Assembly (NCBI GenBank): GCA_025060505.1 | Contig: JANXBU010000005.1 | Coordinates: 91,351 to 155,350 of the forward strand | Origin: Candidatus Calescibacterium sp. | Lineage (GTDB): Bacteria > Calescibacteriota > Calescibacteriia > Calescibacteriales > Calescibacteriaceae | Length of the DNA stretch: 64,000 nt | Direction of reading: 5' to 3' | Part shown: positions 47,589-51,073 of the stretch, piece after piece | How the letters are laid out: each line of letters starts with the position of its first letter | Position numbering within the stretch: the stretch's first letter is position 1 | Program-made: the position numbers and the translations under genes | The notes under the pieces: model-generated | The model's input: only the letters and a program-made list of their open reading frames with translations | Databases searched by the model: none | What the model was told of the DNA's origin: nothing

Positions 47589-50318
47589 CTACATAGAAAC
47601 AAATTCAAGACACCTTTTGCATAGCTGATCTTTGTTATTTTTTTGCTCATGATATTTCCAACACCTTGGACACTTCACAGCATCTTCATACTTCTCAAGA
47701 ACAAAAGATTTATCTGTATCAAACTTTTCAGAAAAAATCTCAACTTTTGAAATTATAAAAAGCTCCTCCAAAATCTTTTCTTGATTTTCAATGTTTCGTG
47801 TAAGATCAGGTGGAACGAAAACTTTGGCCTTCAGTTCAAGAGAGCTACCCACCTTACCACTTTTTCTCATTGAATCTGCTATTTCGTTTATCTTCTCACG
47901 AATCTCAAGAGAATATTTAAAGAACTCCGATATACCGGTTATATCAAGTTCATTCTTGCTCAAAACGGAAGAAACGAGGTTGTTTTCAAATCTCTCAAGA
48001 AAGACACTCTTTTTCTTCTTAAAACCAAACACCTCTGGTATTTTCTGATAAGCCTCCTCAGCAAGAAAAGAGAAAATTGGAGATATAAGAATAATCAGCG
48101 AACGCAAAATCAAAAATACTGCGTACTGCGCACCTTTTCTCCTCTCTGAAGTTTTAGAATCACAGTATATAGTATCTTTTATAACATCAAGGTAGATTCT
48201 TGAAAGAGTTCTATCGCAGAAACTGTGTATTCTTCTGACGATCTTGTGGTACTGCATATGTTTGTAATCTTCAAGAACTTCCTTTTCAAACTCAGATGTA
48301 GAAAAAAGAATGTATCTATCTATTTCGTTAAAAACCTTCGGTTTTTCCTGGGGATTGTCTCCAAGAACACCTAGCATAAATCTTATTGTGTTTCTGACCT
48401 TCCTGTAAATGTCTTTGACTTCCGATAAAATTTTCTCAGATATTTTTACATCCTCCGATGGATCAGAATACACACTCCATATTCTTACTATCTCTGCTCC
48501 ATCTTCCTTTATTATGTCCTCCGGAGATACAACATTTCCGAGAGATTTTGACATTTTTCTTTTGAACTCATCAAGAATGAAGCCATGCGTAAAAACAGAT
48601 CTATATGGTGCTTTTCCTTGTAGCAAATATGAAAGAATTAAGGAGCTCTGAAACCAACCCCTATGCTGATCTGTTCCTTCTATGTATATATCAGCCACGT
48701 CTGAGATTTTCAAAACATCTGAAGCATAAAGAAAACTTAAACCCGAGTCTATCCAAACATCAAGTATATCTTTCCCCTTTTCAAACTCAGTTCCGCCACA
48801 CCTTGAACACTTGAAACCTTCGGGAAGAAATTCATAAACAGGTTTTCTCCACCATGATGAACCATCTCCATCAAGAGTATCTTTTATAATTCTTTGAGCA
48901 ACAAAGTCGCTCCATATATATTCTGAACAGCTTTTGCACTTGACATATGGAATAGGACATCCCCAGAACCTCTGACGAGATATGCACCAATCTGGTCTTG
49001 ATAAGACAGCAGAAGAAATCCTCCTCTTTCCCTCCGGAGGAATCCAATTTACCTTCTCTATTTCTCTGATAAGATCTTCTTTTATATCGCTTACTTTTAT
49101 AAACCACTGCTTTGTCGCTCTGAAAACTATAGGATTTTTACACCTCCAACAGTGTGGATACGAATGCTGATATTTCCCTGCTTTAAAAAGGAGGCCCGAG
49201 CTTCTCAGATCCTCTACTACACTTTCATTGATTTTCTCATAGAACAATCCTTCATATTTCATAGAATCCCTAGTGCCTTTCCCAAACTCATCAAGAACAC
49301 TGACAACAGGAATATTATACTTTATTCCAACCGAAAAATCTTCATCTCCATGACCCGGAGCTATGTGAACTATACCTGTTCCCTCTTCCTCGCTCACAAA
49401 ATCTGCTATAACGCCGACCGAATCTCTATGGAATATAGGATGTGAGAAAACTTTTCCTTCAAACTCCTGACCATTCAATTCAAGAACAATCTCGCACTCA
49501 CCAAGAGCATCTTTTAGCTTTTCCGCTACTATAAAATTCTGAGAGTCCCTTTTGGCTACAACATATTTTATAGAGGAACCAAAAGCCAAAGCAAAATTGC
49601 CAGGAATAGTCCAGGGAGTAGTTGTCCAAACCAAAGCAAAAAGGTTATCGAATTTTTTACCTTTCAGTTCAGAGAATTTAGCAGGAAAAAGAACATATAT
49701 TGAAGGTGAAGTTTTATCTTTGTATTCAACCTCTGCTTCAGCCAGAGCAGTAACACAATGAGGACACCAGAACACGGGCTTGAAATGATCATATATCTTG
49801 CCCTTCTTCCAGATCTCATTTATCGCAGAAACTATAAGTGCTTCATAGTCAGGAGACATCGTGATGTATGGCTTATCCCACGATCCGAAAACTCCAAGCC
49901 TAATGAAATCTTTTTTCTGTATCTCTATGAACTCTTGCGCGTATTTTCGTGAGAGTTCTCTTATCTCTGTTGGAGATATATTCTTTCCATATTTTTTTTC
50001 TACCTCTTTTTCTATGGGTAGACCATGGCAGTCCCAACCCGGGACAAAAAAGACCTTTTTTCCGTCCAAAATGTTGAACTTAACGGTAATGTCCTTTATG
50101 ATTTTGTTCAAAGCATGTCCCAAATGGATTTTACCGTTAGCATATGGCGGACCATCATGTAGGAAGAAAACCTGATCTCGCTGTTCTTTCTGAGTTTTCT
50201 CAAATATCTTTTCATTCTGCCAAAATTCTATAAAAGCAGGTTCCGTACTCGGTAGATTCGCCTTCATCTGAAACTCTGTTTTTGGAAGAAAAATAGTTGA
50301 TTTGTAATCCGTACTCAT
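47589..50318 (-). CDS. ileS: Isoleucyl-tRNA synthetase
   Basis: 909 aa class Ia synthetase charging tRNA-Ile. Motifs: the HIGH-type HLGH in PYANGKIHLGHALNKIIKD; the editing domain (VWTTTPWTIPGNFALAF; GTGIVHIAPGHGDEDF); DWCISRQRFWGCPIP; KMSKS in FKRKMSKSLGNVVSPEDI; the anticodon domain; and a C-terminal zinc finger CPRCW...CKRC. Intact and full-length. No T-box-like leader is apparent in the 314 bp upstream, which instead hold a small mobile-element-like insertion. Confidence 0.97.
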   Translation of the reverse strand: MSTDYKSTIFLPKTEFQMKANLPSTEPAFIEFWQNEKIFEKTQKEQRDQVFFLHDGPPYANGKIHLGHALNKIIKDITVKFNILDGKKVFFVPGWDCHGLPIEKEVEKKYGKNISPTEIRELSRKYAQEFIEIQKKDFIRLGVFGSWDKPYITMSPDYEALIVSAINEIWKKGKIYDHFKPVFWCPHCVTALAEAEVEYKDKTSPSIYVLFPAKFSELKGKKFDNLFALVWTTTPWTIPGNFALAFGSSIKYVVAKRDSQNFIVAEKLKDALGECEIVLELNGQEFEGKVFSHPIFHRDSVGVIADFVSEEEGTGIVHIAPGHGDEDFSVGIKYNIPVVSVLDEFGKGTRDSMKYEGLFYEKINESVVEDLRSSGLLFKAGKYQHSYPHCWRCKNPIVFRATKQWFIKVSDIKEDLIREIEKVNWIPPEGKRRISSAVLSRPDWCISRQRFWGCPIPYVKCKSCSEYIWSDFVAQRIIKDTLDGDGSSWWRKPVYEFLPEGFKCSRCGGTEFEKGKDILDVWIDSGLSFLYASDVLKISDVADIYIEGTDQHRGWFQSSLILSYLLQGKAPYRSVFTHGFILDEFKRKMSKSLGNVVSPEDIIKEDGAEIVRIWSVYSDPSEDVKISEKILSEVKDIYRKVRNTIRFMLGVLGDNPQEKPKVFNEIDRYILFSTSEFEKEVLEDYKHMQYHKIVRRIHSFCDRTLSRIYLDVIKDTIYCDSKTSERRKGAQYAVFLILRSLIILISPIFSFLAEEAYQKIPEVFGFKKKKSVFLERFENNLVSSVLSKNELDITGISEFFKYSLEIREKINEIADSMRKSGKVGSSLELKAKVFVPPDLTRNIENQEKILEELFIISKVEIFSEKFDTDKSFVLEKYEDAVKCPRCWKYHEQKNNKDQLCKRCLEFVSM

Positions 50319-50504
50319 TGATTTTTTATTATTAATAACTGATTTACTCCAAAGTATTTTTTCACATAAGAGTTAGAAAAATCTAATCATTTCTTCGCGG
50401 TCGTAGATTTTTGTTGTGTTTTGGTCTTTTGCCTTAATTTTCAGGGAATAATCAATGTTCGTGAAAAAATGGCTTTGTTGTTGAGAAGATAAGTTATATC
50501 TATC
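50319..50504. other. Intergenic region upstream of ileS
   Basis: Together with the adjoining small element this gives a 314-bp gap. No ORF or RNA gene is evident. A short TTAGA-AAAA-TCTAA stem occurs around 50380. The left copy of a 9-bp target duplication (ATATCTATC) is at 50496-50504. Confidence 0.4.
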
Positions 50505-50625
50505 TGCTGTGTCCAGTAATGCTCTCTGATGTCTGATATTCAGCTACTTCAGAATTTGAGTCTGACATTTTATAAAACCATCACAAATCAGGTACGAAAT
50601 TATTAGGCAATTTTTGGACACAGTA
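50505..50625. mobile_element. 121-bp MITE-like element with 9-bp target duplication
   Basis: Left end TGCTGTGTCCA (50505-50515) and right end TGGACACAGTA (50615-50625) are inverted repeats matching at 10 of 11 positions, with partial similarity continuing inward (AAT at matched positions). Identical 9-bp direct repeats ATATCTATC flank it exactly at 50496-50504 and 50626-50634. No coding capacity, so it would be a non-autonomous insertion or the deletion remnant of an insertion sequence. It lies between rplO and ileS; the right target copy includes two bases of the rplO stop codon. No second copy is visible here. Confidence 0.65.
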
Positions 50626-50632
50626 ATATCTA

Positions 50633-51073
50633 TCAAGTTTTTATCAGTTCGACCTTTCCGCCAGCCTGTTCTATTTTTTTTCTTGCGGGTTCAGATATTG
50701 CATGAACCCTTACAGAAATTTGCCTTGAAATTTCGCCGTCACCGAGTATCTTTACAGGCTTTGATTTGGAATCTATCAAACCAGCCTGCCAGAGAATCTG
50801 TGGATCGATCTCGGAAAAGTTTAACTTATTGAGATCCTTCAGATTCACTATTTGATATATATTCGGAAATTTTGATCTGAATCCTCTTTTTGGAACCCTT
50901 CTTATAAAAGGGGTCTGCCCTCCCTCAAATCGTGGTGGAGGTGTTGTTCCCTTTTGTCCCTGTCCCTTATGCCCTCTTCCAGATGTTTTACCGTGCGTGC
51001 CGTATCCTCTCCCAACTCTCTTCTTTTTATGTGTCGCTCCCTTTGGAGGCTTCAAATTCTCAAGAATACCCAT
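50633..51073 (-). CDS. rplO: 50S ribosomal protein L15
   Basis: 146 aa. N-terminal signature ENLKPPKGATHKKKRVGRG followed by GTHGKTSGRGHKGQGQK, then RFEGGQTPFIRRVPKRGF; the C-terminal half binds 23S rRNA. The stop codon TGA overlaps the target duplication of the inserted element, yet the protein ends normally (VELIKT). In most bacteria rplO lies in the spc operon between rpmD and secY; here it follows a glycosyltransferase gene and no other ribosomal gene is present. No Shine-Dalgarno site precedes the ATG. Confidence 0.96.
   Translation of the reverse strand: MGILENLKPPKGATHKKKRVGRGYGTHGKTSGRGHKGQGQKGTTPPPRFEGGQTPFIRRVPKRGFRSKFPNIYQIVNLKDLNKLNFSEIDPQILWQAGLIDSKSKPVKILGDGEISRQISVRVHAISEPARKKIEQAGGKVELIKT

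Follow-up and report, generated by a model that had tools for sequence, protein, structure and literature searches.

In the window, a 64,000-nucleotide stretch of a Candidatus Calescibacterium genome, the ribosomal-protein gene rplO stands between a glycosyltransferase gene and ileS, whose start lies approximately 315 bp downstream. The space between rplO and ileS contains a 121-bp segment with inverted ends, which is bracketed by two identical copies of a 9-bp sequence. The features of this part of the window are the following:

47589..50318, minus strand: ileS, 909 aa, follows rplO downstream on the same strand; in relatives, not found next to rplO
50496..50504, no strand: left copy of the 9-bp target duplication ATATCTATC
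50505..50625, plus strand: 121-bp miniature inverted-repeat element (MITE), one of five near-identical copies in the genome, which also has three diverged ones
50505..50515, plus strand: left terminal inverted repeat TGCTGTGTCCA; the IS5-type remnants on other contigs have identical ends
50615..50625, minus strand: right terminal inverted repeat TACTGTGTCCA, 10/11 against the left repeat
50626..50634, no strand: right copy of the 9-bp duplication ATATCTATC, overlapping two bases of the rplO TGA
50633..51073, minus strand: rplO, encoding ribosomal protein L15 (146 aa), intact; 72-77% identity in four relatives

A second reading of the sequence confirms the layout given in the preliminary description, with exact coordinates: a 121-bp segment, inverted ends (TGCTGTGTCCA and, read inward from the right, TACTGTGTCCA) that agree at 10 of 11 positions, and perfect 9-bp repeats. 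The same description held that the insertion hit the last codon and kept the protein intact. The second half of this statement stands, whereas the first does not: the target lies at the stop codon (50633-50635, minus strand) and the bases behind it, and no sense codon is changed. Since the right copy of ATATCTATC covers two of the three bases of the TGA, the 146-aa L15 protein is untouched. No open reading frame of 60 aa or more is present inside the 121-bp element; the closest one (50614-50832, plus strand) overlaps its last 12 bases only. By definition, prokaryotic MITEs are short (<500 bp) and have terminal inverted repeats that measure 4-30 bp (PMC10969869); the rplO-adjacent element, with its 121 bp and 11-bp inverted ends, falls within these bounds.

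The gene rplO is present in all four genomes of the same family that were compared. Their L15 proteins are 72-77% identical to that of the window, so that, as far as rplO shows, the window contig is not an Aquificaceae contaminant. None of the four has a copy of the MITE behind rplO. A syntenic empty site is likewise found in none of them, because the downstream neighbours of the gene differ: argS in G003 and, by its sequence, in G001, an AcrB-type gene on the other strand in G002, and nothing evident within 300 bp in G004. As far as the neighbours were read, rplO lies apart from other ribosomal-protein genes in the family genomes, and its neighbours differ nearly every time.

The proposal that the insertion separated rplO from an operon partner finds no support: ileS follows it in the window, and the rplO genes of the relatives stand alone with different neighbours. 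Promoter-like and terminator-like sites in the element are at chance level, with none above it. Because the stop codon is kept and no such site exceeds chance, the insertion at rplO is probably neutral, and its likeliest effect is none.

Copies in the same genome

The genome is a 2.28-Mb draft in 115 contigs, estimated to be 86% complete. Eight copies of the MITE were counted in it by blastn and by a sequence-only profile (R1), and both methods agree. Five copies, on five contigs (C71, which carries the window, C19, C93, C32 and C60), are young and 95-100% identical; the three others (C20, C25 and C28) are diverged, with approximately 75% identity. The copy on C93 has its own perfect 9-bp duplication, GAAAATTAC. 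At C28, the flanks AACAACAGG and AACAGCAAG match at 7 of 9 positions, as expected of an older copy. A clean 9-bp duplication is not found at the C19 copy, and one is absent at the older copies on C20 and C25. The other copies and the related elements are all intergenic except for a single overlap at C19, which amounts to 11 bases at the edge of a probably over-extended open reading frame. Different ends (left TGCTTTATCCA, right similar to ATATTAGACACAGCA) are seen in the older members, both here and in Aquificaceae, and the young subfamily ends in TTTGGACACAGTA. The recent amplification of the young subfamily may have been accompanied by better-matching ends.

The genome-wide search for the same termini that the preliminary description had proposed yielded both other copies and an insertion-sequence (IS) remnant. 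The motif TRCTGTGTCCA occurs 18 times in the 2.28 Mb versus 2 times for the reversed control, mostly at the MITEs and related elements. Lone matches to TACTGTGTCCA at C44:739 and C60:12992 lack a partner end and appear to be chance matches. Besides the window copy, five elements bounded by terminal inverted repeats have perfect 9-bp repeats (on C93, C27, C104, C32 and C60).

These elements bear directly on the simplest alternative, namely that chance alone produced the repeat and the inverted ends in AT-rich DNA. The region does have a GC content of 35%, but a given 9-bp pair would match at all nine positions with a probability of about 8e-6 at the base composition of the window. The strongest reason for rejecting chance is that other copies and elements in the genome share the layout: five more elements repeat it, and the dispersed identical copies refute a chance origin, the probability of which is negligible.

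According to another alternative, the space between rplO and ileS holds a conserved element, regulatory or a small RNA, that only resembles an insertion. Its transcript folds better than shuffled sequences on both strands (z about -2.7); the terminal inverted repeats close this fold, however, and any element of the kind would have them. Furthermore, identical copies adjoin unrelated genes, no Rfam family scores above chance, no terminator is present, the promoter-like sites remain at chance level and the element is absent from the relatives. Such a function is thus very improbable. The MITE reading of the preliminary description, in contrast, is supported by the eight copies, the 9-bp duplications and the IS remnant with the same termini. 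A segment without other copies in its genome and fixed in relatives, which would have spoken against mobility, is not what is observed, since in none of the four family genomes is rplO followed by a copy. Judged by its sequence, the rplO-adjacent element is a real, recently mobile MITE.

Deleted insertion sequences, composites and the presumed transposase

Elements with the same ends as the MITE, but with IS5-type content, occur on four contigs:

C27, 257 bp: internally deleted IS5-type element, perfect 9-bp duplication TCATTATTC
C104, 333 bp (L049:4101-4433): internally deleted IS5-type element, perfect 9-bp duplication AAAACTACC
C32, 439 bp (L047:3283-3721): composite of a MITE and a transposase fragment, perfect 9-bp duplication TACACAAAC
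C60, 445 bp (L048:5316-5760): composite of a MITE and a transposase fragment, perfect 9-bp duplication GAAATCATA

On C27 and C104, the left 77-80 bp and 180-odd bp from the right side of an IS are retained and the middle is missing; these elements are 90% and 84% identical, respectively, to the IS of locus L078. Within the C104 element, part of its right end occurs a second time, which points to a local duplication. The composite units on C32 and C60 are 95% identical to each other. In both, a complete MITE is followed without a gap by the final third of the transposase gene and the right end of the IS, and at both sites the outer 9-bp duplication encloses the whole composite. A composite that combines a MITE end with an IS end has thus moved as a unit to two sites, and this is the strongest indication that both kinds of end are served by the same machinery. 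The composite may have originated from the insertion of a MITE in the transposase gene, followed by loss of the 5' side.

The 86-aa open frame in the C60 composite matches the Pfam family DDE_Tnp_1 (PF01609, E 2.6e-5). In the 86%-complete assembly, neither an intact transposase nor its N-terminal half is found, and no complete IS with an intact transposase is present; all that occurs are truncated IS5-type copies with matching ends. The earlier statement that the mobilising element must be elsewhere holds, within the limit that the assembly has only such truncated copies. One IS right end begins contig C34 (C34:1-77), as would be expected if full IS copies broke the assembly, so that an intact copy may be unassembled. 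Ten relatives of the transposase fragment, 73-91% identical, occur in Aquificaceae metagenome-assembled genomes (MAGs). Several of these relatives end in TGGACACAGCA or near variants, and in 4 of the 10 (L077, L079, L081 and L082) the IS runs off the contig end. The longest of the ten has 226 aa, stays open up to the edge of its contig and scores 190.6 bits with the IS5-family equivalog NF033579, above the cut-off of 140 bits. No relatives of the transposase were found in viral contigs.

The interior of the MITE has no similarity to the IS, and the terminal 11 bp are the only sequence common to both. With no shared subterminal sequence, a simple internal deletion of the IS is ruled out as the origin of the MITE; the elements on C27 and C104 do fit such an origin. 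The unlike interior also leaves room for a different, unseen transposase. The MITE would then be real, its true parent would be a different IS absent from the assembly, and the IS5-type remnant with similar ends would mobilise it at most occasionally. The older members with their other ends are consistent with this, as the young subfamily may have come by the IS ends through convergence or capture. On the other hand, the young MITEs, the deleted IS copies and the composite have exactly the same left end and duplications of the same length, 9 bp, and the movement of the mixed-end composite to two sites argues that one machinery recognises both ends. A separate parent is possible, though rather unlikely.

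Collectively, the genome contains multiple MITE copies with common ends and 9-bp duplications, near identity among the young copies, and truncated IS5-type transposases with the same ends. The segment at rplO is very probably a non-autonomous MITE, which would be moved in trans by the DDE transposase of an IS5-family insertion sequence with TGCTGTGTCCA ends. Such a transposase would mobilise the 121-bp element by making 9-bp staggered cuts in intergenic, AT-rich DNA, and an intact copy of it would exist, or have existed, in the cell and would have been lost in assembly.

Distribution, known systems and significance

The distribution was followed by blastn over 41 relatives and by the profile over 64 Aquificaceae genomes. 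Blastn over 40 other genomes returned only short, chance-like matches, the outcome likewise for the four others of the window's family, and no copies of the MITE were found in plasmids, phages or viral contigs. Any profile match at all is restricted to 4 of the 64 Aquificaceae genomes; five Aquificaceae MAGs gave at least 149, 10, 3, 1 and 0 matches, the first figure coming from 150 scored out of 521 candidates. The rich MAG is SKYG61 (G043, Aquificaceae, 1.3 Mb, loci L142-L201), and its copies are mostly decayed. In 40 of its contigs chosen by number (206 kb), the profile gives 34 matches, and an independent nhmmer search of the sample gives 33 versus 0 in the reversed sequence. Linear extrapolation leads to approximately 215 copies in the 1.3 Mb, an estimate for a fragmented MAG. 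Open frames of at least 100 codons hold 2.5% of the matched bases versus 88% of all bases. Duplications matching at 8 of 9 positions are kept in 4 of the 28 copies tested, a level that random pairs reach in at most about 0.5% of cases. Between the genes of SKYG61, groups of two or three successive copies are frequent; copies hardly ever fall in open frames, and some look nested.

Two phyla therefore harbour the MITE family: one Aquificaceae lineage has a large population of old copies, and the population here is small and partly young. Transfer of the family between the two is plausible, and any direction given to it is an inference. There is about an even chance that a MITE lineage passed between phyla of hot-spring bacteria: it would have reached hundreds of copies in an Aquificaceae lineage and, in the small phylum of the window, would have gained exact IS5-type ends, undergone recent re-amplification and joined a fragment of a transposase to form a composite capable of moving as one.

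Among described systems, the pair of SM3/SM3A and ISC1058 in Sulfolobus comes closest: there, too, the host lives in hot springs and a MITE relies on the transposase of an IS5-family element. Transposition of SM3A depends on ISC1058, and three strains have SM3A without a functional ISC1058 transposase (PMC3718332), which resembles the situation of a lost parent proposed here. A 1057-bp IS5 element on the S. islandicus plasmid pYN01, which by its length is probably ISC1058, carries TGCTTTGT at its ends and lies within the 9-bp duplication CACACGACC; its transposase passes NF033579. This transposase is 31% identical to the Aquificaceae relative over 197 aa, and the ends differ from the TGCTGTGTCCA of the MITE. 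SM3A, moreover, measures 164 bp versus 121 bp here, and SM3 is set beside the present element by description only. By analogy, the MITE and IS described here may work like SM3 and ISC1058; membership of the same family is not claimed.

IS903-like elements of the IS5 family are also comparable: an ISAte1-family copy on a Comamonas plasmid has the ends GGCTTTGTTGCACAAA and a transposase 34% identical. The terminal bases differ, and the identity is low. IS903 itself generates a 9-bp duplication. By description, Correia and ERIC elements are also alike in being short, gene-free, intergenic and present in many copies (Correia >120 in N. gonorrhoeae, ERIC up to 711; PMC10969869). A high copy number of this kind is seen in the Aquificaceae MAG, whereas the window genome has only eight copies.

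The MITE is new in sequence, as far as searched, and belongs to a well-known kind of element; no paper on MITEs in Aquificaceae was found in the open-access literature searched. The insertion in the window is in itself ordinary and probably neutral. What it adds is a parent type, an end sequence and a target length for a MITE family not described so far, from a bacterial phylum about which little is known; the family extends to Aquificaceae, where one MAG is peppered with decayed copies. Together, the young MITEs, the deleted IS copies and the mixed composite form a compact case in which to study the way small elements take on ends that an active transposase recognises.
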